In this document: one piece after another, positions 5,960 through 52,523 of the stretch
Layout of the letters: every line of letters begins with the position of its first letter
How positions within the stretch are numbered: the stretch's first letter is position 1
Assembly (NCBI GenBank): GCA_019244185.1
Contig: JAFATB010000023.1
Coordinates: forward strand, 62,001 to 126,000
Reading direction: 5' to 3'
DNA length: 64,000 bases
DNA from: Acidobacteriota bacterium
GTDB taxonomy: Bacteria > Acidobacteriota > Thermoanaerobaculia > Gp7-AA8
Translations under genes and position numbers: made by a program
Notes under the pieces: model-generated
What the model was told of the DNA's origin: nothing
Seen by the model: the letters and a program-made list of their open reading frames with translations, nothing else
Databases searched by the model: none

Positions 5960-6202
5960 ATGAAAGCGCGCATTCAGAAGTGGGGCGATAGTCTCGCGCT
6001 ACGTATCCCGAAGCCATTCGCGGAGGAAGCGGGACTTGGCGAAGACTCCACCGTGGACGTGACGGTCCGCAACGGCAATTTAGTGGTGGTCGCCGTCGAG
6101 GAACCGCACGAAACGCTCGAGACGCTCGTGGCGCGGATCACGCCTGAGAACCGTCACGACGAAACGGACATGGGAAAACCGGTTGGCAACGAAAGCTGGT
6201 AG
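5960..6202 (+). CDS. mazE: MazE/AbrB-type antitoxin
   Basis: 80 residues. The N-terminus MKARIQKWGDSLALRIPKPF is the swapped-hairpin SpoVT-AbrB DNA-binding fold of MazE; the acidic C-terminus (NRHDETDMGKPVG) would wrap around the toxin. It overlaps mazF by 20 bases, normal for the pair. TATCAT at 5938-5943 is a plausible -10 with a 16-base leader. The pair is expected to autoregulate through MazE. Base composition is visibly less GC-rich than the neighbours, and direct repeats flank the pair, consistent with transfer. Confidence 0.88.
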   Translation: MKARIQKWGDSLALRIPKPFAEEAGLGEDSTVDVTVRNGNLVVVAVEEPHETLETLVARITPENRHDETDMGKPVGNESW

Positions 6203-6533
6203 CGGCTACGTTCCCGAGCGCGGGGATCTCATCTGGCTGTCGTTCGATCCACAGGCTGGGCATGAGCAGGCCGGACGCCGGCCGGCCGTGGTGCTGTCGC
6301 CCGCTTCCTACAACCGCAGCTCCGGCTTGGCGTTGGTCGTCCCCGTCACGTCGCACATCAAGAGCTATCCATTCGAAGTGCTCATTCCTGCCGGCGGGCA
6401 CGTCTCGGGCGTCGTTCTCGCGGACCATCTGAAGAGCGTTGATTGGCGGGCTCGCAAGGCCGAACGCATCGCAGCGTTACCAGAAGTCACTTTGAATCAG
6501 GTACTGAAGAAGGCCGCGTTGCTTTTGACGTGA
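6183..6533 (+). CDS. mazF: MazF/PemK-type mRNA endoribonuclease toxin
   Basis: 116 residues. The TTG start at 6183 is inferred because the next residues align with the MazF N-terminus (YVPERGDLIWLSFDPQAGHE). Further family features are GRRPAVVLSP and LVVPVTSHIKSYPFEV, the PemK beta-barrel core, and VVLADHLKSVDWRARKAER at the third conserved block. The enzyme cleaves mRNA at short motifs; its sequence preference cannot be read here. All expected blocks are intact, so the toxin should be functional. Confidence 0.9.
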   Translation: MATKAGSGYVPERGDLIWLSFDPQAGHEQAGRRPAVVLSPASYNRSSGLALVVPVTSHIKSYPFEVLIPAGGHVSGVVLADHLKSVDWRARKAERIAALPEVTLNQVLKKAALLLT

Positions 6534-6534
6534 C

Positions 6535-6629
6535 CGCTCGCCCACGCGATGCAGCTGCCGCTACGCGCAGCTGATCGCCATGTCCGTCGCGATCAGCCGC
6601 GCGCAGCGCCGGCTGCCTCGCGGCGAGCG
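6535..6629. repeat. 95-base palindromic (REP/MITE-like) element
   Basis: The outer ends CGCTCGCC (6535-6542) and GGCGAGCG (6622-6629) are inverted, and an inner dyad pairs 6565-6578 with 6589-6602 (13 of 14 bases) around a 10-base loop. The whole can fold as a long imperfect hairpin. It lies between mazF and the kinase gene, and its left quarter is duplicated before mazE. It may also end the mazF transcript. Confidence 0.65.
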
Positions 6630-6678
6630 ACCGCGGCGGCGACGCCGTCCGCGCGTCGCGTACACTGGAAGCATCGGC

Positions 6679-9282
6679 ATGCGCTTTGGCCCATACGAAG
6701 TCGTCGACCGCCTCGCGGAAGGCGGTATGGGTGAGGTGTACAAAGCGCGCGACACGCGGCTCGACCGCACCGTCGCACTGAAAGTCCTCCCGCAACATCT
6801 CTCCAGCGATCCCGAACTGCGCCGGCGTTTCGAGCGCGAGGCGCGCGCGATCTCCGCGCTCTCGCACCCGCACATCTGCACGCTCTTCGACATCGGCAGC
6901 GACGGCGGGCAGGACTTCCTGGTGATGGAGTATCTCGACGGCGAGACGCTCGCCGAGCGCGTCACGCACGGCCCGCTGCCGATCGCCGACGTCATCCGCT
7001 ACGGCATCGAGATCGCCGACGCGCTCGAAAAAGCGCATCGCGCCGGCATCGTTCACCGCGACCTCAAGCCGGGCAACATCGTCCTCACGCGCAGCGGCGC
7101 GAAGCTCCTCGACTTCGGCCTCGCGAAATGGCTTCCGCCGGATGCGTCGTCGGTGCTCGGCCGTTCCGAGGACGTCACGAAGACCGCGCCGCTGACCTCG
7201 CAGGGCACGCTCCTCGGCACCATTCCGTACATGGCGCCCGAACAGCTGGAGGCGAAAGAAGTCGATGCGCGTACAGACATCTTCGCCTTCGGCGCGATCC
7301 TCTACGAGATGGCCACGGGCGTGCGCGCGTTCAGCGCCGGCTCGAACGCGAGTCTCATCGCCGCGATCCTGCGCGAGGAGCCGCCGCTGCCGTCGCGATT
7401 GCGCGCGCTCGCGCCGCGCGCGTTCGATCAGATCGTCCGCACGTGTCTGGCGAAGAATCCGGACGATCGCTTCCAGTCCGTGCACGACGTGCGCATCGCG
7501 CTGGAGATGCTCGGCGCGAGCGGCGACGACGCGGACGCGGAAGAAGAACGCGCGCGCAGGCCGTGGCTCGTCCCCGCGATCGCCGCCGCCGTGGCCATCG
7601 TGGCGATGATCGCCGCCGCGGCGTTCTGGCTGCGTCCCGCCGCAACGGCGCGCGTCTACCGCTTCACGATCGCGCCGCCGCAGGGCTCGACCTTTCCGAC
7701 GCTCGGCGAAGGCGGCGCGCTCGCGCTCGCGCCGGACGGGCGGCAGCTCGTCTTCGAGGCCACGACGCCGGAAGGGCGCACGTATCTCTGGCTGCGGTCG
7801 TTCGAATCCGAGGTGCCAGAGATGCTGGAGGGGACGGAAGGGGGCGAGTATCCGTTCTGGTCGCCGGACGGACGCGCCATCGCCTTCTTCGCGGACGGAA
7901 AGCTGAAGCGCATGAATCTCCCCGACGGTCCGCCGCAGACGTTGTGCGACGCGCCGACGGGACGCGGCGGCTCGTGGTCGCGCGGCGGCACGATCCTCTT
8001 CGCGCCGGCGAGCACCGGACCGCTGTATCGGGTCTCCGCGTCGGGTGGACAGCCGGAAGTCGCGACCGCGGCGCCGCGAGGCGTGTACTCGGAGCGCTGG
8101 CCGCAGTTCATCGACGACGACCGCTTCCTCTTCGTCGTGCAGAGCCAGCGTCCCGCGCTGCGCGGCGTCTTTGCCGGCTCGCTGAAATCGCGGGGGATGA
8201 AGAAGCTGCTGCCGACCCCGCTCAGCGTCGCGTACGCGCCGGGGCGCCTCTGCTACGTGCGCGATCATGTGCTCGTCGAGCAGCGCTTCGACGGCGACGA
8301 GCTCGCGGGCGACGCGCGCGTCATCGCCGACGCGATGGTCTACTACGCCGATCGCGCGTACGTGCCCGTCACCGCGTCGGCGGATGTGGTGGCCTTCCGC
8401 CGCAACGCCGCCGCCAACATGCGCGTGGCCTGGTTCGCGCGCGACGGCCGCCGCCTCGGCGCGATCGGCGAGCTCGGCGAATTCGAGGGTCCCGCGCTCT
8501 CGCCCGACGGCACGCGCGTCGCGTTCGGGTACTTTGATACCAATGAATCGCTGAACCACATCGCGCTGGCCACGCTCAGCGGCGGCGTCCCGCGCCGCTT
8601 CACCTTCGCGCACGGCAACCAGTACTCGCCGGTCTGGTCGCCCGACGGCGCGCGGCTGGCGTTCAGCGACGACGAGGCCGGCGTCGACACGCTTTCGTCG
8701 AAACCGTTCGCCGGCACGAGCAACGAGCGCCCGCTCATTCCGCCGCCGCCGAGCTCCACGTACGCGCAGAGCTGGTCGCCCGACGGCGCGCACATTCTCT
8801 ATCGCGTGCAGGACGCGAAGAACGGCTTCGACATCCGCGCGCTGTCGCTTCTCGACGGCAAATCGGAGCTGTACGTGAGCGGTCCCGCCGATCAGTCGCA
8901 GGGACAGTTCTCGCCCGACGGCCGCTGGGTCGCGTACACGTCGACCGAGTCGGGACGCCACGAGGTCTACGTGCAGCCGTTCCCCGCAACGGGCGCGAAG
9001 TGGCAGGTGTCGGTGAGCGGCGGCGAGCAGCCGCGCTGGCGCCGCGACGGCAAGGAGCTCTTCTACCTCGCGCCCGACCGCTCGCTGATGGCGTTGCCGA
9101 TCGCGGCGATGGGCGCGTTCGACGACGCCGCGCCGCAACGCCTCTTCGCGACGAACATCCCGTTCGGCGACATCAACGTCTCGCAGTCGTACGACGTCAG
9201 CGCGGACGGCGAACGCTTCGTCGTCGCGGCCGCGGATCCACTGTCGCCGCAGACGCCGATCAGCGTCATTGCAGGACGTTAG
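6679..9282 (+). CDS. Ser/Thr protein kinase with transmembrane helix and PD40/TolB-like sensor
   Basis: 867 residues from the ATG at 6679 (GGAAG eight bases before; an upstream in-frame ATG at 6580 would add a low-complexity Arg tail inside the palindromic element). Residues 5-270 are a Hanks-type kinase: GGMGEVY (P-loop), catalytic K35, HRDLKPGN with D128, DFG (145-147), and an APE-like MAPEQ. One hydrophobic helix spans about 295-318. The outer part carries repeated WSPDG-type PD40 blades (YPFWSPDGRAIAF, YSPVWSPDGARLAF, QSWSPDGAHILY, QFSPDGRWVAY), forming a predicted beta-propeller. It probably senses an extracytoplasmic ligand and phosphorylates cytoplasmic proteins. TACACT at 6661-6666 is a plausible -10. 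Confidence 0.92.
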   Translation: MRFGPYEVVDRLAEGGMGEVYKARDTRLDRTVALKVLPQHLSSDPELRRRFEREARAISALSHPHICTLFDIGSDGGQDFLVMEYLDGETLAERVTHGPLPIADVIRYGIEIADALEKAHRAGIVHRDLKPGNIVLTRSGAKLLDFGLAKWLPPDASSVLGRSEDVTKTAPLTSQGTLLGTIPYMAPEQLEAKEVDARTDIFAFGAILYEMATGVRAFSAGSNASLIAAILREEPPLPSRLRALAPRAFDQIVRTCLAKNPDDRFQSVHDVRIALEMLGASGDDADAEEERARRPWLVPAIAAAVAIVAMIAAAAFWLRPAATARVYRFTIAPPQGSTFPTLGEGGALALAPDGRQLVFEATTPEGRTYLWLRSFESEVPEMLEGTEGGEYPFWSPDGRAIAFFADGKLKRMNLPDGPPQTLCDAPTGRGGSWSRGGTILFAPASTGPLYRVSASGGQPEVATAAPRGVYSERWPQFIDDDRFLFVVQSQRPALRGVFAGSLKSRGMKKLLPTPLSVAYAPGRLCYVRDHVLVEQRFDGDELAGDARVIADAMVYYADRAYVPVTASADVVAFRRNAAANMRVAWFARDGRRLGAIGELGEFEGPALSPDGTRVAFGYFDTNESLNHIALATLSGGVPRRFTFAHGNQYSPVWSPDGARLAFSDDEAGVDTLSSKPFAGTSNERPLIPPPPSSTYAQSWSPDGAHILYRVQDAKNGFDIRALSLLDGKSELYVSGPADQSQGQFSPDGRWVAYTSTESGRHEVYVQPFPATGAKWQVSVSGGEQPRWRRDGKELFYLAPDRSLMALPIAAMGAFDDAAPQRLFATNIPFGDINVSQSYDVSADGERFVVAAADPLSPQTPISVIAGR

Positions 9283-9460
9283 TGAAGCGCGGCACGTGCG
9301 GCAAAAGGCTCAAGAATTAATGCCGTGCAGGGTCAATTCCTGAAACACGGCACAATCGCTAACCCACTGTAAATCCTGAAACCGCCTTGTAACTCGCGCG
9401 TTTTGTACGACATGGTATTTTCCCGCCGCGTGGCAATCGCATTGCTCCGCGCAGTCTGTA
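9283..9460. other. 178-base intergenic region with a stem-loop
   Basis: No coding potential is seen. At 9321-9352 a hairpin forms: TGCCGTG then CAGG, loop of seven, CCTG, three unpaired A, CACGGCA. It is not followed by a T-run, so it may be a processing or termination site for the kinase mRNA. TCCTGAAAC occurs twice (9338 and 9374). The region from 9370 to 9425 is relatively AT-rich and may hold the promoter of the next gene, but no clear -35/-10 pair was found. Confidence 0.4.
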
Positions 9461-10036
9461 ATGAATGATGCACTTCGCGACGCCGCACGCGTCATCGTGA
9501 CCGCCGACATCGCGTTGGGACCCGGTGAGGTCTTCTCCGTCGCCATCGACGACATGGCCGCATCGCTCCCCGAAGAAGAGTGCTTCCGCTTCGCCCTCCA
9601 CTATTACGCGCGCGTGCTGTACGAGCTCGCACAATCGCAGCGGTCGATGCATCGCCTCCCCGAATGGACGGCGCGCGTCGCGCAGACGGCCGTCGACCGC
9701 GACACCGATTGCTTCGCCATCGCCGGCACCGGCGGCACGCTCGTCCAGTCGATCGAGCGTCCGCTCGCGCGCGTGCACGTCGCGATGCGCACCAGCGGTC
9801 TGCGCGACCGCGAGGTCACCGGCGATCTCGCGCCGCTGCGCGGCTCCTCGCTCGCGCGCTCGGTGCTCGCGGTCTGTCAGGCCGTCCTGCCGCGCCTTTC
9901 GGACTCCGTCCGCGCCGCGCTGCCGTCCGCGCTCGCGAACATGAACGCCTCCTACGAGCTCGCGCATCACTACGCCGACCCCGACAGCCAGCGCCACGTG
10001 CCGTCGGTCGCGTATCTCGCGGCATCGTTTGTCTGA
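9461..10036 (+). CDS. Protein of unknown function, helical, upstream of MFS gene
   Basis: 191 residues, not recognised. It is cytoplasmic (no signal peptide) and mainly helical, with a central pattern suggesting a conserved core: FRFALHYYARVLYELAQSQ, then CFAIAGTGGTLVQSIERPLARVHVAM. The ATG start is preceded by no clear ribosome site. The end overlaps the MFS transporter start by 8 bases, so the two are probably translated together and may share a task. Confidence 0.55.
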   Translation: MNDALRDAARVIVTADIALGPGEVFSVAIDDMAASLPEEECFRFALHYYARVLYELAQSQRSMHRLPEWTARVAQTAVDRDTDCFAIAGTGGTLVQSIERPLARVHVAMRTSGLRDREVTGDLAPLRGSSLARSVLAVCQAVLPRLSDSVRAALPSALANMNASYELAHHYADPDSQRHVPSVAYLAASFV

Positions 10037-11243
10037 CATCCGCCTGCTCTTCGCCGCGCGCATCGTGCGGCTCTTCGCCTACGGCTTCCTCTCCGTCGTC
10101 CTCGTGCTCTATCTCTCCGCGGCCGGTCTCGACAAAGAGCACATCGGCCTGCTGCTGTCGCTGACGCTCGTCGGCGACGTGCTGATGTCGCTTTACCTGA
10201 CGACGCGCGCGGACGTCTTCGGACGCCGCCGCACGCTCGTCGCCGGCGCGGCGCTGATGTTCCTCGCCGCGGTGGCCTTCGCCGTGACGCGCGACTTCAC
10301 GCTGATGCTCCTCGCCGCGACGATCGGCGTGATCAGCCCGAGCGGCAACGAGGTCGGCCCGTTCCTCGCCGTCGAACAGGTCGCGCTCGCGCAGCTCGCC
10401 GGCGCGCGCGACCGCACCAGCCTCTTCGCCTGGTACAACCTGAGCGGCTCGTTCGCCACCGCGTGCGGCGCGCTCGCCGCCGGCGCGTTTACGACGCGTC
10501 TCATGCGCGGCGGCTTCACCGCGGTCGCGAGCTACCGCGTCGTCATCGCCGGCTACGCGCTCCTCGGCATCGTGATGGCGCTGCTGTTTCTCCGCGTCTC
10601 GCGCGCCGTCGAAAACCCGAACGACGCGGCGAGCGGCGCGCCGCCGGCCGCGAAGTCGCTGTTCCGCATCAGCGCGTCACGCGACGTCGTCACGCGGCTC
10701 TCGATCCTCTTCGCCGTCGACTCGTTCGCCGGCGGTCTCGTCGTGCAGAGCATCGTCGCCTACTGGTTCTTCCATCACTTCCGTGCCAGCCCCGCGCTCA
10801 TCGGCTCGATCTTCTTCGGCGCGAACATCCTGGCCGGCATCTCCGCGCTCGCCGCCGCGCGCATCGCGCGCCGCATCGGTCTGCTGAAGACGATGGTCTT
10901 CACGCACCTGCCGTCGAACGTCCTGCTGCTGCTCGTGCCGTTCATGCCCACGCTGCCGCTCGCGATCGCGGTGCTCCTGCTGCGCTTCTCGATCTCGCAG
11001 ATGGACGTGCCGACGCGGCAGTCGTACGTCATCGCGGTCGTCGATCCATCCGAGCGAACGGCGGCCGCGGGAATCACCGGCGTCGCGCGCACGACCGGTG
11101 CCGCGCTCGCGCCGGTCATCGCCATGCCGCTCATCGCCGGCATGCGCAGCTGGATTCCGTTCGTCGCCGCGGGCGTGCTGAAGATCGGCTACGACCTCGT
11201 GCTGCTCCACGGCGCGCGCCGTCACACGATGCCGGACGACTGA
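10029..11243 (+). CDS. Major facilitator superfamily transporter
   Basis: 404 residues. The TTG at 10029 is the best start because the first residues (SDIRLLFAARIVRLFAYGFLSV) lead straight into helix 1 and the start overlaps the upstream stop. About 12 hydrophobic segments are visible, and the MFS loop motif appears as TTRADVFGRRRTL between helices 2 and 3. A second-half counterpart (ARIARRIGLLKT) lies after helix 8. The substrate is unknown; the style resembles drug/metabolite exporters. The 3' end overlaps the convergent modC gene by 22 bases. Confidence 0.82.
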   Translation: MSDIRLLFAARIVRLFAYGFLSVVLVLYLSAAGLDKEHIGLLLSLTLVGDVLMSLYLTTRADVFGRRRTLVAGAALMFLAAVAFAVTRDFTLMLLAATIGVISPSGNEVGPFLAVEQVALAQLAGARDRTSLFAWYNLSGSFATACGALAAGAFTTRLMRGGFTAVASYRVVIAGYALLGIVMALLFLRVSRAVENPNDAASGAPPAAKSLFRISASRDVVTRLSILFAVDSFAGGLVVQSIVAYWFFHHFRASPALIGSIFFGANILAGISALAAARIARRIGLLKTMVFTHLPSNVLLLLVPFMPTLPLAIAVLLLRFSISQMDVPTRQSYVIAVVDPSERTAAAGITGVARTTGAALAPVIAMPLIAGMRSWIPFVAAGVLKIGYDLVLLHGARRHTMPDD

Positions 11244-11881
11244 TCGACGACGCGGCCGCGGTCGAGCAGCACGAGCTCTTCGCAGATTGCCGCGACTTCC
11301 TCGCGCTGATGCGTGACGTACAGCATCGGGATGGGGAACGCGTCGCGCACGCGCACGAGGTACTCGAGCACGCGGTCGCGCAGCACCACATCGACCCCCG
11401 CCAGCGGCTCGTCGAGGAGCAGCACCTCGGGACGGCTGAGCAGCGCGCGCGCGAGCGCCACGCGTTTGCGCTCACCGCCGGAGAGATGCGCGACGCCGCG
11501 GCCGAGGAGCGGCTCGAGCTCGAGGACGTCGACGACGTGCGCGAAGGCGAAGACGTCATCGTCGCCGTCGCGCGTCGCGCCGTACGACACGTTCTGCCGC
11601 ACGGAGAGATGCGGAAAGAGCGCGTCGTCCTGCGGCACGTAGCCCACGCGGCGCGCGCGCGGCGGCACGAACACGCGTTGCGCGGCGTCGAACACGACGC
11701 GTTCGTTGAGCTCGATGCGTCCCGTCGCCGGCGTGCGCAGGCCGGCGATCGTTTCGAGGAGCGAGGTCTTGCCCGCGCCCGACGGGCCGTACAAAGCGGT
11801 GATCCGCCGCGTCGTCGCGAACGAGACGTCGAGCGTGAACGGCGCGAGCGGCAGCACGACGTCACGCAACACGATGCTCAC
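11222..11881 (-). CDS. modC: Molybdate ABC transporter ATP-binding protein, short form
   Basis: 219 residues, GTG start that overlaps the modAB stop by four bases (GTGA). Walker A GPSGAGKTS, signature LSGGERKRVALARAL, Walker B VLLLDEPLAGVD and the switch histidine in YVTHQ are all present. Typical ModC is about 350 residues and ends in a molybdate-binding MOP/TOBE domain; here the protein stops after the nucleotide-binding domain, so that regulatory domain is absent. It energises the fused ModAB encoded just upstream. Confidence 0.85.
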   Translation of the reverse strand: MSIVLRDVVLPLAPFTLDVSFATTRRITALYGPSGAGKTSLLETIAGLRTPATGRIELNERVVFDAAQRVFVPPRARRVGYVPQDDALFPHLSVRQNVSYGATRDGDDDVFAFAHVVDVLELEPLLGRGVAHLSGGERKRVALARALLSRPEVLLLDEPLAGVDVVLRDRVLEYLVRVRDAFPIPMLYVTHQREEVAAICEELVLLDRGRVVDQSSGIV

Positions 11882-13287
11882 AGCGCGCGCCTCCCGCGGC
11901 GGAGAAAGGTCTCCGCGATCCACACCGACACGAACGCGACGAGGACGGCGATGAAGAGCAGGCGAAACGCGTCGGCGTCGCGGCCGAGCTGCACGCTCTC
12001 GTAGATCGCGAGCGAGAGCGTCTGCGTGCGCCCCGGGATGTTGCCGGCCACGAGGATCGTCGCGCCGAACTCGCCGATCGCGCGCGCGAACGCGAGCAGC
12101 AATCCGCCGACGATGCCGCGCGCGGCGAGCGGCAGCGTGATGGTGGCGAAGACGCGCGCGTTCGTCGCGCCGAGGGTGCGGGCGATCTGTTCGAGTCGCG
12201 GGTTCACTTCCTCGAAGGCCACGCGCGCGGCGCGCACGAGGAGCGGGAATGACATCACCATCATCGCCAGGACGACTGCACGCCATGTGAACACGAGCTC
12301 GAGTCCGAACGAGCGGCGCAGGCGGCCGAGTCCTTCGAGGAGGAGCAGCCCGGTCGCAACCGGCGGCATCACCAGCGGCAACGCGACGAGCGTCTCGACG
12401 AGCGACTTGCCGCGCCACTCGAACCGCGCGAGCAGCCACGCGACGGCGAGTCCGGGGACGAGGATGAGAAATGTCGAGAGCGATGCCGTGCGCAGCGTCA
12501 GCCAGAGCGGCGTGAGCACGTCGTGTTTCGTGACGTTTGACGCCGGCGCGGGCGCGGCGTTCGTGATGAAGCCTTCGCGCGCGAAGACCGGCAGCCCCTC
12601 ATGCGTCGCGTACGCGAGAAACCGCTGCGCGCCGGCGCGGTCGTGCGCGTGCGTCAGTACGGCAAAGGCGTACGCGATCGGCGGCGCGTCGTCGCGCGGC
12701 ACCTCGTACGCAACGCGCACGTCATTCGTCGTGAGCGCGTCGGTGCGGTAGACGATCGCCGCGTCCGCGCCGCCCGACGCCACCGCGCGCAACGCGCCGC
12801 GCACGTTCTCGGTCGGAATCACGTGCGGCGCGAGCGCGGTCCAGAGTACCTTACGCTCGAGGTACGTCCGCGCGTAAATGCCGGCGGGAACGGTCGACGG
12901 CTCCGCGAGCGCGAGCCGCCGCACGCGCAGCAACTCGCGCGGCGAGGTCATCGCCGGCGCATCGCGCGGCACGACGACGACGAGCGCGTTCGACAACACG
13001 CTGACGCGCGTGCCGACGTCGACGAGCCCGCGCGCAACGAGGCGGTCCATGGTCGCGTTGTCGGCGGAGAAGAAGACGTCCGCCGGCGCGCCTTCCTCGA
13101 TCTGCCGCGCCAGCGTCGGCGAGCCGGCCGCGTGCACCAGCACCCGCCCGCCGCCCGCCCGCGCGTACTGCGCGCCGATCGCCTCGACCGCATCGGCAAG
13201 GCTCGCCGCCGCGAACACGCGCACCTCGTCCGCATGAAGCGCGAACGTCAGCAGCAACAACGCGAAGGCGAGGAATCGCCGATGCAC
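11878..13287 (-). CDS. modAB: Molybdate-binding protein fused to permease (ModA-ModB)
   Basis: 469 residues in one uninterrupted frame; GTG start. Residues 1-19 are a signal peptide. Residues 20-235 are ModA-like: VRVFAAASLADAVEAIGAQY, GSPTLARQIEEGAPADVFFSAD and the late VAYEVPRDDAPPIAYAFAVL. After a short linker, residues 255-469 are ModB, with a cytoplasmic EAA-type loop (IARTLGATNARVFATITLPL) and AIGEFGATILVAGNIPG typical of ModB. In most bacteria these are two genes; fusing them tethers one binding protein to each permease. The ligand could also be tungstate. TATGAT six bases before the GTG suggests a leaderless transcript. Confidence 0.9.
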   Translation of the reverse strand: MHRRFLAFALLLLTFALHADEVRVFAAASLADAVEAIGAQYARAGGGRVLVHAAGSPTLARQIEEGAPADVFFSADNATMDRLVARGLVDVGTRVSVLSNALVVVVPRDAPAMTSPRELLRVRRLALAEPSTVPAGIYARTYLERKVLWTALAPHVIPTENVRGALRAVASGGADAAIVYRTDALTTNDVRVAYEVPRDDAPPIAYAFAVLTHAHDRAGAQRFLAYATHEGLPVFAREGFITNAAPAPASNVTKHDVLTPLWLTLRTASLSTFLILVPGLAVAWLLARFEWRGKSLVETLVALPLVMPPVATGLLLLEGLGRLRRSFGLELVFTWRAVVLAMMVMSFPLLVRAARVAFEEVNPRLEQIARTLGATNARVFATITLPLAARGIVGGLLLAFARAIGEFGATILVAGNIPGRTQTLSLAIYESVQLGRDADAFRLLFIAVLVAFVSVWIAETFLRRGRRAL

Positions 13288-13293
13288 GCGCGG

Positions 13294-13299
13294 ATCATA
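13294..13299 (-). promoter_or_regulatory. -10-like TATGAT for modAB, leaderless spacing
   Basis: On the minus strand TATGAT ends six bases before the GTG at 13287; no ribosome site is present. Confidence 0.55.
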
Positions 13300-13309
13300 G
13301 TCGCGCCGC

Positions 13310-13315
13310 TACACT
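13310..13315 (+). promoter_or_regulatory. -10-like TACACT for the DUF3574 gene, leaderless spacing
   Basis: TACACT ends seven bases before the ATG at 13323. With the modAB element it forms a divergent promoter pair only 11 bases apart. Confidence 0.55.
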
Positions 13316-13322
13316 GACAACG

Positions 13323-13748
13323 ATGCGCCGCACTTTGCTCGCTCTCGCCTTCCTGTCCGTTCTGACGTCGTGCACGACGATGCAGCCGTCCGCGCCGATG
13401 CAGGTCGTCGACGACGACCGCCTCTTCTGCGGCCTCTCGATTCCCGACGGCGGCACCGTGTCCGAGCGCGACCTCGCGCAGTTCCTCGACGAAGTCGTCG
13501 TCACCCGTTTCCCCGACGGCTTCAGCGTCTTCCACATCGACGGCCACTACAACGACACGCGCAAAGGCCCCGTCGCCGAATCGAGCATCGTCATCGAGAT
13601 CATCCACGTCCACGACGCGAGCAAGGACCAACTCGTCCGCGAGATCGCCACCGAATACCGGCGCCGCTTCCGCCAGCAAGCCGTCCTGCGCATGCACGCG
13701 TCGGGAGCGATGGAGTTGATCGAGGAGAAGAGCGCGTCAACCGAATGA
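13323..13748 (+). CDS. DUF3574 lipoprotein
   Basis: 141 residues. The N-terminus is a lipoprotein signal with lipobox LTSC (cysteine 16). The mature part matches DUF3574: LFCGLSIPDGGTVSERDLAQFLDEVVVTRFPDGFSVF and a C-terminal helix with IATEYRRRFRQQAVLRMH. The domain has a ferredoxin-like alpha/beta pattern of unknown role. It is transcribed divergently from modAB, and its end overlaps the convergent membrane-protein gene by 12 bases. Confidence 0.8.
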   Translation: MRRTLLALAFLSVLTSCTTMQPSAPMQVVDDDRLFCGLSIPDGGTVSERDLAQFLDEVVVTRFPDGFSVFHIDGHYNDTRKGPVAESSIVIEIIHVHDASKDQLVREIATEYRRRFRQQAVLRMHASGAMELIEEKSASTE

Positions 13749-14216
13749 GCTCGGTGGCAGGAACCGCGGAAGGATCGCCGCGGCCACCGCGAGCGCGCCG
13801 AGCAGCATCGTCGCCATGATCTTCGACGGCTTCAGCACGCGCTCGCGAAAGGTGACGTTCTTCTCGCCCCAGCCTTTCCAGTGCGAAGGCAGCCGATACG
13901 GTTCCTCGAACAAGCCGAGCGCGGATTCGATCGACGCGATCACCTTCTGCGTTTCCGCGAGAAAGCAGCGCTGCTTCAACTGCCACTTGATCGAGAACAC
14001 CGTGACGATTGCCATCGCTGCCGCGGCGAGCCCCGCGCCGACACCGGTCTGCAACAGCAGCCCGCGCTTGTCGCTCGTCAGCAGCAGCGCGGCGCCGATG
14101 AAGCCGACCAGAATCGCCGAGCTCCAGTTGAAGATCTCGTTCTCCCGCGCGCGCCGATACTCCAGCTGCTTGAGCTGCGCTTCGTAAAGGTGCAGCAGGA
14201 GCTCGTGGTCGGGCAT
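13737..14216 (-). CDS. Small membrane protein of unknown function
   Basis: 159 residues from the ATG at 14216 (a GTG at 14222 is inside the promoter spacing and less likely). An N-terminal charged helix (HLYEAQLKQLEYRRARENEIFNW) is followed by two hydrophobic helices (about 31-48 and 57-76), a cytoplasmic or periplasmic loop with EEPYRLPSHWKGWG, and a third helix near the C-terminus. The pattern resembles RipA-like/SLATT-type membrane proteins, but I cannot assign it. TATCAT lies seven bases before the ATG. Confidence 0.6.
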   Translation of the reverse strand: MPDHELLLHLYEAQLKQLEYRRARENEIFNWSSAILVGFIGAALLLTSDKRGLLLQTGVGAGLAAAAMAIVTVFSIKWQLKQRCFLAETQKVIASIESALGLFEEPYRLPSHWKGWGEKNVTFRERVLKPSKIMATMLLGALAVAAAILPRFLPPSSFG

Positions 14217-14223
14217 GGCCACG

Positions 14224-14229
14224 ATGATA
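14224..14229 (-). promoter_or_regulatory. -10-like TATCAT, leaderless spacing
   Basis: TATCAT on the minus strand ends seven bases before the ATG at 14216. It supports that ATG over the GTG six bases further upstream. Confidence 0.5.
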
Positions 14230-14237
14230 CGGCCCCC

Positions 14238-15428
14238 TCACCACCTCCGCGGCATCTTCACCCCCTCCGCCCCGCACAGCTCCGCGTGGCGCTCGAGCGC
14301 GGCCACGATCGCGGAGCGATCGTCGCCGCTTGCGCGCGCGGAGCGATCGTCACCGCTCACCGTTGCCGCATCTTCGAGCCAGAGTTTGGAGACGACGAGA
14401 CGCTTGCCGTCGATGCGGGCGTCGAGGCGGCCGAGGAAGCGGTCGTGGTGGAGGAGGGGGCAGACGTACCAGCCCCAGCGCCGTTGCGCGGCGGGTTTGT
14501 AGACTTCCCAGACGTATTCGAAGGCGAAGACGTGGCGGACGAGGTCGCGGTCCCAGAGGAGCGGATCGAGTGGGCCGAGGATGCGGACGCGGTCGTCGTA
14601 GCGCGGGCGTGGGGTCGTGAGGAACGACGGCACGGCGAGGTAGCGGCGGGCGGAGTCTTCGATGGCCACTTCGACGAGCTCGCCGTCGGCGAGCATTGCA
14701 TCGACGACACCCGACGTCCGCACGTTGCTGAGCATCGACCACATCGCGCCGCTCGCGCGCGTGAGGAGGCCGGCGGCGTGCGCGCGTTCGCGCAGCGCCC
14801 AGCGGGCGAAGTCGCCGCGCGGTTTCTCGGTCGCGACGTCGCGGCCGAGGGCGCGTTCGGGGACGTCGTAGAGCTTCGCGCCGGATGAGGTGCGGCCGGC
14901 GACGACGACGTCGCAGCGCGTCCACAAGACTTCGAGCGCCATCGACGTCGCCTTCGCGGTGCCGCGCCAGCCGGCCCAGTCGATCGGCTCGACTTCGCCG
15001 TGGTCCGTGAGATCGCGCGCGGTGAGCGGGCCGCGGGCGCGCACTTCCTCGAGCACTGCCGCAATCAAACGCGGCGCGAGGCGCTGTTCGCGTTCGCCGT
15101 GCCGCCACCACGGCGTCTGTGCGGCGTGTCCCTGCACGCGATACCACGGGAACGCGGACGCGGGGAGGATGCAGCGCTCCTTGGCGAAGTGCTCGAACGC
15201 CTCGCGCGGAAAGAGATGCCGCCAGACGTCGCCGCGCGCCACGCCTTCGGTGCGCGCCATGACCACGAGATCCGCATTCGTGCCGATCGGATCGAGCGGA
15301 TCGAGCTGAATGCAGCGCAGGCGGTCGAGCACCTTGCGCGTGCCGGCGCGGCCGCGTCCGAGCGAGCGCGCGAGGCCGAGGTGCGCGACGAGCAGGCGGC
15401 GCGCATCGGCGCGGGAGAGCGTCTCCAT
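14238..15428 (-). CDS. YcaQ-family winged-helix DNA glycosylase
   Basis: 396 residues from the ATG at 15428. This is the HTH_42 (DUF1006) family of tandem winged-helix proteins, whose studied members AlkZ and YcaQ/AlkX excise alkylated bases and unhook interstrand crosslinks. The catalytic Q-x-Q/D motif is seen as Q41-L-D43 (CIQLDPLDPI), which matches the YcaQ type. Other family features are FPWYRVQGH, the WAGWRGTAK region and LLHHDRFLGRLDARIDGK in the C-terminal barrel. Near the C-terminus a 9-residue unit (SGDDRSA..) is duplicated by a 27-base tandem repeat. It is transcribed divergently from doxX. Confidence 0.85.
   Translation of the reverse strand: METLSRADARRLLVAHLGLARSLGRGRAGTRKVLDRLRCIQLDPLDPIGTNADLVVMARTEGVARGDVWRHLFPREAFEHFAKERCILPASAFPWYRVQGHAAQTPWWRHGEREQRLAPRLIAAVLEEVRARGPLTARDLTDHGEVEPIDWAGWRGTAKATSMALEVLWTRCDVVVAGRTSSGAKLYDVPERALGRDVATEKPRGDFARWALRERAHAAGLLTRASGAMWSMLSNVRTSGVVDAMLADGELVEVAIEDSARRYLAVPSFLTTPRPRYDDRVRILGPLDPLLWDRDLVRHVFAFEYVWEVYKPAAQRRWGWYVCPLLHHDRFLGRLDARIDGKRLVVSKLWLEDAATVSGDDRSARASGDDRSAIVAALERHAELCGAEGVKMPRRW
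14311..14357. repeat. In-frame 27-base-period duplication within the YcaQ-like gene
   Basis: Copies at 14311-14330 and 14338-14357 match at 19 of 20 bases (GCGGAGCGATCGTC then G or A, CCGCT). It doubles SGDDRSA in the protein, near the end. Confidence 0.75.
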
Positions 15429-15462
15429 GCGCGGCGCAGGGTCGCATAACAAGCGTCGAGGA

Positions 15463-48189: not shown

Positions 48190-49500
48190 TCAGTAGTATT
48201 CGTGGCCGAGGTGCGTCAGCGTCTCCTCGCCCATCGCCCAGCGCATCGTGTTCTTCAGCTTCATCAGCTGGATGAAGAGGTCGTGCTCGGGATAGAGCTC
48301 GGGCGCGGTCATCGGGCATTTGAAGTAGAAGCTGAGCCACTCCTGAATGCCGGACCAGCCGGCGCGCTGCGCGAAGTCGAGCAGCAGCGCGAGGTCGAGC
48401 ACGATCGGCGCGGCGAGGATCGAATCGCGGCAGAGGAAGTCGATCTTCATCTGCATCGGATAGCCGAGCCAGCCGAAGAGATCGATGTTGTCCCATCCTT
48501 CCTTCGCATCGCCGCGCGGCGGGTAGTACTCGATGCGCACCTTGTGAAAGAGCTTCCCGTACAGCGATTGGTAGATCTCGGGTTGCAGGATGTAATCGAG
48601 CACGCCGAGCTTGGTTGTCTCTTTCGATTTGAAGGATTCCGGATCGTCGAGCACTTCGCCGTCGCGATTGCCGAGGATGTTCGTCGAGAACCAGCCGCGC
48701 ACGCCGAGCATGCGCGCCTTGAGCGCGGGCGCGACGACGGTCTTCATCAGCGTCTGGCCGGTCTTGAAGTCCTTGCCGGCGATGGGCACGCCTTCGCGGC
48801 GCGCGAGCTCCCACGCGGCGGGGAAGTCGACGGCGAGGTTCGGCGCGCCGTTCGCGAATGCGACGTGCTCGCGCAGACACGCCCACGCGTAGAGCTGCGC
48901 GTTAGAGATCGTCGGATCGTTGTGCGCGAGCGCTTCTTCGAACGACTCGACGGTGTGATGGCAGCCGTTCGCGGAGACCCACACTTCCGTGCTGCCGCAC
49001 CAGACGGCGACGGCGCGCGTGCAGCCGTTGTCGCGCTTGAACGCGCGGATGTCTTCGCGGAGCTGCGCGACCATCTCCGCTTTCGTCTCCCCCTTTTTCA
49101 CGTGCGTGCCGTTGAGGCGGCGCACGTACTCGGGATAGAAGACGCCCGGCATCGGACGGATGGCCTCGAGCTCGTCGCGCACGACATCGAGGTGCTCGCG
49201 CGTGAGGACGTCGGCGTGGATGGCAGACTCGTACGCGTTGTCGGGAAAGATGTCCCACGCGCCGAAGACGAGGTCGTCGAGCTTCGCGAGGCCGAGGAAG
49301 TCGTCGATGCGCGGCGCTTTCGCATCGGTGCGTTTGCCGAGGCGGATGGTGCCCATCTGCGTCAGCGAGCCGACGGGCTCGGCGAGGCCGCGCCGCGCGA
49401 GCAGCACGCCGGCGATCATCGTGGTCGAGACGGCGCCAAGACCGGGCAGGAGAACGGCCAGCTTACCGGACGCTGGCGTCACGACTTCGGGTTGTTTCAC
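48190..49500 (-). CDS. ino1: myo-Inositol-3-phosphate synthase
   Basis: 436 residues from the GTG at 49500 (VKQPEVVTPASGKLAVLLPG); an ATG at 49542 would add 14 residues that do not fit the family. NAD site LLPGLGAVSTTMIAG, then SLTQMGTIRLGKRTD, FANGAPNLAVD, KDFKTGQTLMKT, GWFSTNILGNRDGEVLDD, and KVRIEYYPPRGDAKEGWDNIDLFGWLGYP. The enzyme makes L-myo-inositol-1-phosphate (also called D-myo-inositol-3-phosphate) from glucose-6-phosphate. In bacteria the product feeds inositol lipids, mycothiol-like or compatible-solute pathways; none of those enzymes is in the window. Confidence 0.93.
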   Translation of the reverse strand: MKQPEVVTPASGKLAVLLPGLGAVSTTMIAGVLLARRGLAEPVGSLTQMGTIRLGKRTDAKAPRIDDFLGLAKLDDLVFGAWDIFPDNAYESAIHADVLTREHLDVVRDELEAIRPMPGVFYPEYVRRLNGTHVKKGETKAEMVAQLREDIRAFKRDNGCTRAVAVWCGSTEVWVSANGCHHTVESFEEALAHNDPTISNAQLYAWACLREHVAFANGAPNLAVDFPAAWELARREGVPIAGKDFKTGQTLMKTVVAPALKARMLGVRGWFSTNILGNRDGEVLDDPESFKSKETTKLGVLDYILQPEIYQSLYGKLFHKVRIEYYPPRGDAKEGWDNIDLFGWLGYPMQMKIDFLCRDSILAAPIVLDLALLLDFAQRAGWSGIQEWLSFYFKCPMTAPELYPEHDLFIQLMKLKNTMRWAMGEETLTHLGHEYY

Positions 49501-49535
49501 GGTACCGGCGAGGCGAGCAAAACACGGGCCACGCC

Positions 49536-49552
49536 TTTGCATAATGTGCAAA
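49536..49552. promoter_or_regulatory. Inverted repeat in the ino1 / HD-gene divergent region
   Basis: TTTGCA (49536-49541), five bases, TGCAAA (49547-49552). It is AT-rich and centred between the divergent genes. TAATGT (49542-49547) within it sits 11 bases before the plus-strand ATG at 49559. A shared operator is plausible. Confidence 0.5.
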
Positions 49553-49558
49553 TGAAGA

Positions 49559-50464
49559 ATGCTCGAGGAAGTCACGGTCGTCGCTCCGCACGAGCCCAAT
49601 CGGGGAGTGTTGCTGGCGCAGCTGGCGGCGGAGTTTCCGTCGATCTTCGCGCGCCTCGACGGCGACGCCGCGGAGGCGCCGCACGTGCGCGCGTCGGAGT
49701 GGCGCCGCGCGGACTTTGATACATGGTCGTTCGACTGCCGCGTCGACGAGCTCGCATCGGCGCCGTTCACGCTCACGCTCGCACACGATGCCGACGACGC
49801 GCCGCGCTTTCCGATCGAAGTGCTGAATCGCTGTCAGCGCGCGATCGGGCGGCGCAACCGGCACTCGCAGGGACAACTCTTCACGCGCGTGCTCGAACGC
49901 CATCGCGCGCTGCACGACGTCGCGAAGCCGCTCGTCCGCGCCGACTACAACCACGCGCGCGACGCGTGGCAATGGCTGCTGCGTCTCGATGCGGAGGCCT
50001 CGCTCGCGGTGCAAATTGCGGCGCTTTTTCACGATATCGAGCGACTCGCATCCGAGTCCGACGCGCGCGTCGAGCACCATGCGGACGACTACCAAACGTT
50101 CAAGGACGCGCACGCGCGCGCCGGTGCGGCGATGACGGATGCGGTGCTCGCGGAGGCGGGTGTGAACGCGAGCATCGGCGCACGTGTCTGCGAGCTCGTC
50201 GCGCGGCACGAGCGTCCGTCGGACGACGCGGAGCTCGCGCTCCTCAACGACGCCGACGCGCTGTCGTTCCTGTCGCTCAATTCGCCCGGCTACGCCGACT
50301 ACTTCGGCGCCGAGCAAACCAGAAAGAAACTCGCGTACACGTGGAATCGCATGCGCCCGAGCGCGCGCGCGAAGCTGGGCCTCGTGCATCTGCGGGACGA
50401 CGTCGGCGCCTGGTTGCGTGAAGTCACGGAGCGGGAGGTCAGGGATGGATCTGTCGGCGCATGA
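49559..50464 (+). CDS. HD-domain-like protein (predicted metal-dependent phosphohydrolase)
   Basis: 301 residues. The first 90 residues are a separate alpha/beta part (VVAPHEPNRGVLLAQLAAEFPSI). From residue 100 the HD pattern follows: ADYNHARDAWQWLLRL (first His), AALFHDIERLASESDA (HD), EHHADDYQTFKDAHARAG (further His) and LLNDADALSFLSLNS (terminal Asp). I do not recognise a specific family; its substrate may be a nucleotide or inositol-related phosphate given the neighbours (inference). It overlaps the methyltransferase gene by 20 bases. Confidence 0.7.
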   Translation: MLEEVTVVAPHEPNRGVLLAQLAAEFPSIFARLDGDAAEAPHVRASEWRRADFDTWSFDCRVDELASAPFTLTLAHDADDAPRFPIEVLNRCQRAIGRRNRHSQGQLFTRVLERHRALHDVAKPLVRADYNHARDAWQWLLRLDAEASLAVQIAALFHDIERLASESDARVEHHADDYQTFKDAHARAGAAMTDAVLAEAGVNASIGARVCELVARHERPSDDAELALLNDADALSFLSLNSPGYADYFGAEQTRKKLAYTWNRMRPSARAKLGLVHLRDDVGAWLREVTEREVRDGSVGA

Positions 50465-51179
50465 GATCGAACAACGTGTGCGCTCCCTCGGACAGTGGTT
50501 CCACAATCTCGATTTGCGCGGCGTGAAAACGGCGCCGGACCACTTTCTGGGCGATTACCCGAACATCAAATGGCAGCGGTTCGCGCACGCGATTCCGGCC
50601 GATCTCACCGGGAAATCGGTGCTCGACATCGGCTGCAACGCCGGCTTCTATTCGATCGAGATGAAGAAGCGCGGCGCCGCGCGCGTCGTGGGCGTCGACT
50701 CCGACGACACGTATCTGAATCAGGCGCGCTTCGCGGCAGAGGTGTCGGGATTCGGGGATATCGAGTTCAGGAACCTCTCGGTGTACGACGTCGGCAAGCT
50801 CAGTGAGCGCTTCGACCTCGTCATCTTCATGGGCGTGCTGTATCACCTGCGGCATCCGCTGCTCGCGCTCGACACGCTGTACGACACGGTCGTCGGCGAC
50901 CTGCTGCTGTTCCAGAGCATGCAGCGCGGCAGCAGCGACGTCGCGCGTGTCGAGGAGAACTATCCGTTCTGGGACACGTCGGTATTCGAGCAGGACGGCT
51001 ATCCGCTGATGTACTTCGTCGAGTCGCGCTACGCGAACGATCCGACGAACTGGTGGATCCCGAACCGCGCCTGCGTCGAGGCGATGCTGCGCAGCGCCGG
51101 TTTCACCATCGAGGCGCATCCGGAAGAAGAGGTCTATCTCTGCCGCCGCGGCGTTCGGCCGTCGTTTGGAGACGCGTAG
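50445..51179 (+). CDS. SAM-dependent methyltransferase, CmoB-like (TIGR04290-like)
   Basis: 244 residues; the ATG at 50445 follows GGGAGG. Rossmann motif I is VLDIGCNAGFYSIEMKKRGA, with the acidic end of strand 2 in VVGVDSDDTYLNQ and a motif near DLVIFMGVLYHLRHPLLALD typical of the CmoB/DUF1698 group. The opening (HEIEQRVRSLGQWFHNLDL..GVKTAPDHFLGDYP) matches a family found next to the glycosidase type encoded directly downstream. The substrate is unknown. The next gene begins immediately after its stop. Confidence 0.82.
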   Translation: MDLSAHEIEQRVRSLGQWFHNLDLRGVKTAPDHFLGDYPNIKWQRFAHAIPADLTGKSVLDIGCNAGFYSIEMKKRGAARVVGVDSDDTYLNQARFAAEVSGFGDIEFRNLSVYDVGKLSERFDLVIFMGVLYHLRHPLLALDTLYDTVVGDLLLFQSMQRGSSDVARVEENYPFWDTSVFEQDGYPLMYFVESRYANDPTNWWIPNRACVEAMLRSAGFTIEAHPEEEVYLCRRGVRPSFGDA

Positions 51180-52067
51180 ATGCCCGTCGAAGCGGTGATG
51201 TTGTGGAACGAGCCGAACAACCTCTCGCACTGGGATTTTCAGATCGATCCCGAATGGCAGGTGTTCTCCGAGATGACCTGTCTCGCCGCGCAGGCGGTGA
51301 AGTCGGTCAACGCGACGCTGCCGCGCGTCCTCGGCGGCATCTCGCCGATCGACGCGCACTTCATCAATCGCATGAAGCGGCAGTGCGTCATCGACAACGT
51401 CGACGTCGTCGCCGTGCACGGCTTTCCGCTCGACTGGAACCACTGGCAAATCCAGGAGTGGCCGGCGAAGCTGCAGGAGATCCGCGAGGTCACTGACCTG
51501 CCGATCTGGGTGAGCGAAGTGGGCGTGTCGACCTTCGGCGCGGAAGAGGTGCAAGTCTTCGGACTCGAGAAGACGATGGAGCTGATCCTCGAGGCCGTGC
51601 CGCGCGTGCACTGGTACTCGCTCTACGATCTGCCGAAGGCGTGGCCGGCGACGACGCGTCATCGCGAGGCCGAAGGCTCGTCGTATTACCGGCACTTCTA
51701 CATGGGCGTGCTGCGCGAAGACGGCACGCCGAAGCTCGCGCTCGATGCGCTCGCGAAGTACACGCCGGAGCTCGGCGTCTGCCAGTGGTTTCATTACGAG
51801 GATCACCGCCTCGACGACGCCGTGCGCTGGCTGAAAAAGCTCGGCGTGAAGCGACTACGCACGGGCCTCAGCTGGGCCGATCATCACCGCCCGAACGCCT
51901 TGGAGTGGTTCGATAAGCAGATGAAGGCGCTCGAACCGTTCGACGTGACGCTGACGTATTGCTTCACGCCCGGCTCGCGAGGCGTGCGCGATCACTACAC
52001 CTCGCCGCCGCAGGTGGTGGAGGAGTTTGCGGAGTTTTGCGCGGAGATGACGCGGCGGTACGCGTGA
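51180..52067 (+). CDS. Glycosidase-like TIM barrel, apparently circularly permuted
   Basis: 295 residues, ATG directly after the methyltransferase stop; GGAG lies 10 bases before. The chain opens at strand 4 of a clan-A (GH39/beta-xylosidase-like) barrel: VMLWNEPNN with acid/base E11. It continues through VLGGISPID (strand 5), VDVVAVHGFP (6), IWVSEVGVST with nucleophile E113 (7) and VHWYSLYDL (8). Then GVCQWFHYED, VKRLRTGLSWAD and FDVTLTYCFTP look like strands 1-3, ending FCAEMTRRYA, the sequence that normally precedes strand 4. So all eight strands seem present in the order 4-8, 1-3. No signal peptide. Alternatively the last third begins a lost second barrel. Confidence 0.75.
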   Translation: MPVEAVMLWNEPNNLSHWDFQIDPEWQVFSEMTCLAAQAVKSVNATLPRVLGGISPIDAHFINRMKRQCVIDNVDVVAVHGFPLDWNHWQIQEWPAKLQEIREVTDLPIWVSEVGVSTFGAEEVQVFGLEKTMELILEAVPRVHWYSLYDLPKAWPATTRHREAEGSSYYRHFYMGVLREDGTPKLALDALAKYTPELGVCQWFHYEDHRLDDAVRWLKKLGVKRLRTGLSWADHHRPNALEWFDKQMKALEPFDVTLTYCFTPGSRGVRDHYTSPPQVVEEFAEFCAEMTRRYA

Positions 52068-52107: not shown

Positions 52108-52329
52108 TCAGGCGCCGACTACTAAGTATTCCGCAAACGCCGTGCTCTGCGGGATCGGCAAGCCATCCTCGATCAGTCCTTCAATATGCAACTGTATGGC
52201 CTCATACATGTTCCGCTCGGTCTCTTCATGGGTGGCACCCGTTGCAACACAGCCCGGCAGATCCGGCGAATATGCGGAGTAGTTCTCGCCAGCCGCTTCG
52301 ATCACGACCAAGAACCTGTGCATGTTCAT
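52108..52329 (-). CDS. hicB: HicB-family antitoxin
   Basis: 73 residues, ATG overlapping the hicA stop. It has the partial-RNase-H-like HicB fold: HRFLVVIEAAGENYSAYSPDLPGCVATGATHEETERNMYEAIQLHIEGL. There is no C-terminal DNA-binding domain, so this is the short HicB type; repression of the operon would need another means or oligomers. The gene order toxin-antitoxin is normal for hicAB. Confidence 0.9.
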   Translation of the reverse strand: MNMHRFLVVIEAAGENYSAYSPDLPGCVATGATHEETERNMYEAIQLHIEGLIEDGLPIPQSTAFAEYLVVGA

Positions 52330-52523
52330 TTCAGCCCCGCCTGTTTGAGGATACTGTTGAAGGTTCCCGGCGCGAGATCATCGCTCATTTTCCCGGAAAT
52401 GGTGACGCGTCCCGGCTTCGTCGGATGCTTGTACTGCCGATGACTCGTCCCGCTGGTCGTTTTCACCTGAAGCCAACCGTCTTCCTCGATAATTCTGATC
52501 GCCTCTCGCACTTTCGTTGGCAC
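52326..52523 (-). CDS. hicA: HicA-family mRNA interferase toxin
   Basis: 65 residues, GTG start. The double-stranded-RNA-binding-like fold with catalytic histidine is seen in VREAIRIIEEDGWLQVKTTSGTSHRQYKHPTKPGR (H28), followed by DDLAPGTFNSILKQAGL. All conserved positions are intact. TAGAAT six bases before the GTG indicates a leaderless transcript. Base composition is lower in GC than the neighbours. Confidence 0.92.
   Translation of the reverse strand: MPTKVREAIRIIEEDGWLQVKTTSGTSHRQYKHPTKPGRVTISGKMSDDLAPGTFNSILKQAGLK

Follow-up and report, generated by a model that had tools for sequence, protein, structure and literature searches.

Does the short glycosidase gene in the window, which is the whole 64,000-nucleotide stretch of acidobacterial DNA analysed here, encode an enzyme barrel whose strands follow one another in a rotated order? 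The first-pass annotation of this DNA had proposed a natural circular permutation, in which strands 4–8 of a glycosidase barrel are followed by strands 1–3. Searches with rotated and native profiles, the ends of the homologues, the existence of native-order sisters and a structural model all bear this reading out: the gene very probably specifies a permuted clan GH-A (βα)8 glycosidase with an intact active site. Its parts are as follows.

51180..52067, forward strand: predicted clan GH-A glycosidase of circularly permuted strand order, 295 aa and a stop codon (open reading frame, homologue ends, rotation tests, model)
51180..51764, forward strand: N-terminal segment, residues 1–195, equivalent to β4–β8 of a native barrel (native-order sister profile 106–291, 139 bits; PslG 131–319)
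51765..52064, forward strand: C-terminal segment, residues 196–295, equivalent to β1–β3 and α3 of a native barrel (native-order sister profile 2–101, 53 bits; PslG 25–128)
51210..51212, forward strand: predicted acid/base E11 in WNEPNN (aligned with PslG Glu165; invariant in 81 of 81 permuted members)
51516..51518, forward strand: predicted nucleophile E113 in WVSEVG (aligned with PslG Glu276; invariant in 81 of 81)

The reading frame is intact, from the ATG at 51180 to the TGA stop at 52065–52067, and specifies 295 residues. The N-terminus reads MPVEAVMLWNEPNN, LWNEPNN occupies residues 8–14, E113 lies within IWVSEVG, and the last 100 residues hold GVCQWFHYED, VKRLRTGLSWAD, FDVTLTYCFTP and, at the C-terminus, EMTRRYA. 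The succession described at the outset, an opening at the strand-4 motif, passage through E113 and a finish on the named β1–β3 segments, is present in full. An in-frame TAG (51177–51179), the stop codon of a methyltransferase gene, lies immediately 5′ of the ATG. Because the two codons abut, no in-frame strands can precede the barrel, and because the frame stops at 52065–52067 no second domain can follow: neither of these arrangements, either of which the first-pass annotation regarded as incompatible with a permutation, is seen. The abutting codons also fit the proposal that the gene is translated in step with the methyltransferase.

Two native-order barrels serve as points of reference. PslG of Pseudomonas aeruginosa (GH39; PDB 5bx9 and 4zn2), whose acid/base is Glu165 and whose nucleophile is Glu276 (PMC11912335), is the nearest solved structure by sequence, with similarity at the profile level only. 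Its barrel and both glutamates align with the window protein after rotation, but PslG has the native order, is larger, with an extra C-terminal region, and acts on the Psl polysaccharide. The closest homologous barrel belongs to a sister family of native-order glycosidase–epimerases, such as ACE94375.1 from plasmid pC of Rhizobium etli CIAT 652, which is annotated only as an epimerase. After rotation these proteins are ∼30–38% identical to the window protein, and they share its gene cluster and its catalytic residues. They differ in their native strand order, in having an epimerase (epimerase 2) fused behind the barrel, and in the absence of an inositol-phosphate synthase from the 14 loci checked.

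The catalytic residues lie where clan GH-A enzymes carry their acid/base and nucleophile, N10–E11 on β4 and E113 on β7. In the PslG alignments E11 and E113 fall at chain positions 139 and 250, which we infer to be Glu165 and Glu276 through a constant offset of 26. Residues strongly conserved in both the permuted and the native families occur in each of the two segments: N10, E11, P12, N13, N14, G52, G53, H80, G81, F82, P83, W110, E113, W145, Y146, R171 and H172 in the N-terminal segment and W203, R210, R227, S231, W232, T263 and P264 in the C-terminal segment. The active-site residues have been kept, as had been claimed, and because both glutamates and their neighbours are invariant an active enzyme, predicted to operate by a retaining mechanism, is to be expected. 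It is improbable that the protein is instead an inactive relative whose part in a glycan-synthesis complex is to bind sugar or to act as a scaffold. Such a part would suit a biosynthetic cluster and a chain with no apparent secretion signal, both unusual for a degradative enzyme, as well as the tethering of the native-order form to an epimerase; it accords poorly with the invariance, in all 81 members, of both glutamates and of N10, H80, W145, R227 and W203, most of which are common to the native-order sisters.

Structure prediction, which had been put forward as a check, yields a single confident domain with eight strands in the permuted order. The AlphaFold2 model (81 sequences; mean pLDDT 87.7, pTM 0.88) places β4–β8 at residues 3–8, 49–54, 76–81, 109–114 and 143–146, and β1–β3 at 199–201, 225–231 and 255–261; the last helix, 280–294, is α3. 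The eight strands alternate with helices as in a (βα)8 barrel, residues 155–171 are poorly predicted, and from the model we infer one closed barrel. Foldseek, a method bound to sequence order, matched the model to generic TIM barrels in the PDB with TM scores up to 0.46 and, over 163 columns, to part of a GH10 xylanase; a full-length clan GH-A match is absent among the matches listed. A permuted barrel would be expected to behave in this way, although the outcome falls short of positive proof. None of the structures found by sequence and profile searches of the PDB belongs to the permuted family itself. A cut of this kind gives the chain two free edge strands, one at either end, which could swap, so that a genuinely permuted barrel might work only as an obligate oligomer in which segments complete the barrel of a neighbouring chain. 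This arrangement appears improbable, as the monomer is already predicted as a confident single domain.

In native order, Pfam detects the N-terminal portion of the protein only. Glyco_hydro_cc (PF11790), whose strands are in native order, is the only Pfam family above its cut-off (25.9 bits against 21); the match covers the β4–β8 part, residues 3–148 on profile positions 66–207 of 237, and extends to positions 53–207 after rotation. Pfam gives no match to the C-terminal 97 aa on their own, and NCBIfam holds no family for the glycosidase. GH13 and GH70 are absent from the Pfam matches of the window protein and of its family members. On its sequence features the protein is a predicted retaining glycosidase of clan GH-A. 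The label 'GH39-type' stands to the extent that the nearest solved relative, PslG, is a GH39 enzyme; the GH39 profile PF01229 does not match the window protein and, of 14 members, hits a single one (E 0.024). Assignment to GH39 itself is not secured.

When a profile of 14 diverse permuted members is built in their own order, its match to PslG falls into two pieces that are swapped (E 1.2e-6), with profile positions 200–293 on PslG 25–128 and 2–184 on PslG 131–319. When the same 14 sequences are rotated at GVCQW, a single collinear match to PslG 25–304 results (E 4.3e-12); the rotated profile also gives weak matches that span the junction, to GH39 xylosidases (E values from 0.016 upwards) and to GH1 enzymes. 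With the window sequence alone, a PDB search in native order gives no convincing match, and the comparison with PslG moves from E 1.9 to 2.8e-4 upon rotation. Every one of the 295 rotations of the window protein was then scored with a profile built from ten native-order sister proteins. The top score, 207.8 bits in one piece over model positions 2–291, is reached at residue 195, whereas the unrotated protein gives swapped pieces of 139 and 53 bits. All 81 permuted members behave alike, swapped when unrotated and collinear when rotated, and the ten native-order proteins, which are the profile's own members, all align in one piece. Alignment in rotated order, likewise suggested as a check, thus converts two swapped matches into one with both references. 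In 81 of 81 members the end of one piece and the start of the other are separated by 4–7 model positions, within the α3–β4 loop, which at the level of sequence is the signature of a single cut at this site. A homologous native-order family, exchanged segments and a cut within a surface loop, the elements that define a circular permutation, are all found.

These matches bear directly on the idea that the gene encodes a truncated glycosidase, β4–β8 only, joined to an unrelated C-terminal domain that resembles barrel strands by chance. The native-order Pfam match confined to residues 3–148 and the silence of Pfam on the C-terminal 97 aa are what such a protein would give. However, the C-terminal segment aligns with β1–β3 in the sister family and with PslG 25–128, both segments bear residues conserved in the two families, and AlphaFold2 packs them as one domain. 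Because both segments match one family in swapped order, and the same swap recurs in 81 of 81 members, the order is not due to chance. The sister profile match refutes the truncation, which we regard as very improbable.

At least 582 stretches encoding relatives were found by scanning bacterial and archaeal genomes. The best 80 of these are 67–75% identical to the window protein and derive from Acidobacteriota, Myxococcota, Verrucomicrobiota, Armatimonadota, Pseudomonadota (Microvirga, Methylobacterium, Roseomonas and Azospirillum) and others. Close homologues with identical termini, a further point on which the proposal could be judged, occur among them: the start codon stands right before IEAxMxWNEPNN in nearly all of the 80, and most end at RRYA or within ∼20 residues beyond. 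Complete Sinorhizobium plasmids also carry the permuted gene with the same order and ends; the Sinorhizobium meliloti copies are annotated plainly as 'beta-xylosidase'. The chance that an ordinary linear gene was rearranged in the window genome alone, by misassembly or frameshift, is negligible and the homologues refute it: the genome is a draft of 26 contigs in which nothing was found in favour of an artefact, and hundreds of independent relatives (80 examined), together with the Sinorhizobium plasmids, share the order and the ends.

Within the window's phylum the glycosidase is present in one of 149 sampled genomes, the window's own, which suggests horizontal acquisition. Searches of viral contigs and phage records returned no relatives, and there is no sign of phage carriage in these collections. 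The tails of the 80 homologues, of which the longest is 54 aa, contain no tandem-barrel (duplicated) intermediates.

The native-order sisters emerged from a search of genomes with the rotated profile, as proteins matching collinearly over positions 1–287. They are ∼680–690 aa long, with the glycosidase at the N-terminus and an NAD-dependent sugar-nucleotide epimerase as the C-terminal half. At loci L104, L109, L112, L114, L120–L125 and L142–L144 such genes are annotated only as NAD-dependent epimerase and the native-order clan GH-A domain has been overlooked. In the plasmid record of Xanthomonas sacchari R1 (L113:12162-13000) the glycosidase–epimerase gene appears to be split over two frames, by a frameshift or as a pseudogene. 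In a maximum-likelihood tree of native-order and rotated permuted sequences, all permuted proteins fall in a single clade (99/95) beside a native-order clade (100/99), the root being uncertain as the outgroup branches are very long. Because clan GH-A relatives such as PslG have the native order, the permutation is taken as the derived state. Among 289 sampled genomes of the class to which Microvirga belongs, the permuted form is present in six, the native form in six others, and both together in none.

A natural circular permutation of a (βα)8 barrel is documented for the GH70 glucansucrases/GtfB of clan GH-H, with non-permuted GtfC/GtfD and GH13 enzymes extant (PMC9732880). Those proteins are large, multidomain and secreted, belong to another clan with other catalytic machinery, and no homology with the window protein is claimed. 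A full-text literature search, in which few subscription papers were covered, yielded no report of a permuted clan GH-A enzyme or of this gene cluster. Permutation of a whole enzyme barrel with both forms alive in one gene cluster is rarely seen. As native and permuted forms occur in the same cluster type in related bacteria, the origin of the permutation, its effects on folding and catalysis and its spread across several phyla become testable. The permutation also explains why a large enzyme family is mislabelled automatically, as 'beta-xylosidase' or as no family at all, and the family marks an uncharacterised oligosaccharide pathway.

The neighbours of the gene in the window are the following.

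50445..51179, forward strand: TIGR04290 family methyltransferase (NCBIfam 392 bits, cut-off 300; its TAG abuts the glycosidase ATG)
49559..50464, forward strand: DUF4202 / HD-domain protein (PF13875, 94 bits; overlaps the methyltransferase start by 20 bases)
48190..49776, reverse strand: myo-inositol-1-phosphate synthase (PF07994, 322 bits; PF01658, 110 bits)

The trio of DUF4202, methyltransferase and glycosidase diverges from the synthase gene, whose true start is probably near 49545, because the mechanically called frame extends into the divergent gene and residue 107 is the first to be covered by the Pfam match. Across 84 loci examined for neighbours (the permuted loci and two native-order ones), a methyltransferase homologue is found in 71, that is in most permuted loci, and DUF4202 in 12. 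A typical native-order cluster consists of epimerase 1, the glycosidase–epimerase 2 fusion, in some cases a TIGR04295 B12 radical SAM protein, four glycosyltransferases, a UDP-glucuronic acid decarboxylase-like SDR and the TIGR04290 methyltransferase. Some permuted genomes have the same operon with an epimerase 2 that lacks the glycosidase: the glycosidase-free epimerase 2 of S. meliloti is 68% identical to the fused one over 359 aa. The permuted glycosidase is a gene of its own, often next to that of the methyltransferase or of inositol-3-phosphate synthase: at one locus (L139) it follows the methyltransferase, and on S. meliloti pSymB it lies beside genes for inositol-3-phosphate synthase and a histidine phosphatase. 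Inositol-phosphate synthase homologues occur near about half of the permuted loci (two queries, with 39 and 6 of the 84) and in none of 14 native-order loci, the flanks of the two sets differing in length; the association with the permuted form is a correlation only. A histidine phosphatase and a sugar nucleotidyltransferase also accompany the permuted form and were not seen beside the native-order form in the loci compared.

The permuted barrel probably arose from an ancestral native-order gene by a break in the α3–β4 loop and the joining of the original termini. The chain would then run β4–α4 to β8–α8, continue through β1–α1, β2–α2 and β3–α3, and fold into one (βα)8 barrel with E11 and E113. 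No secretion signal is apparent and the chain begins directly with a barrel strand. Because of this, and of the constant sugar-nucleotide and glycosyltransferase partners, the glycosidase may be a cytoplasmic enzyme that trims or transglycosylates an oligosaccharide product of the cluster's glycosyltransferases, epimerases, UDP-sugar decarboxylase and methyltransferase; inositol would, in many genomes, perhaps be supplied by the neighbouring inositol-3-phosphate synthase. We hold the chances for and against such a biosynthetic role, in the building or trimming of a possibly inositol-linked oligosaccharide, to be evenly balanced. PslG is likewise encoded in a polysaccharide-biosynthesis operon. 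A more ambitious and rather unlikely scenario is that a distinct family arose once from an epimerase-fused barrel, the permutation releasing the glycosidase from the epimerase and accompanying its recruitment to inositol, with members being cytoplasmic transglycosidases that make an inositol-containing, methylated oligosaccharide.

The rest of the pathway is encoded elsewhere in the window genome. Contig C21 (∼6000–14900) carries adjacent epimerases 1 and 2, with no glycosidase between them, four glycosyltransferases and a Gfo/Idh oxidoreductase, and contig C13 (∼13600–15450) a nucleotidyltransferase and a further glycosyltransferase. Downstream of the glycosidase, on the reverse strand of the window, inspection by eye reveals an overlapping pair of small genes, one HicB antitoxin-like (73 aa, 52108–52329) and the other HicA toxin-like (65 aa, 52326–52523).
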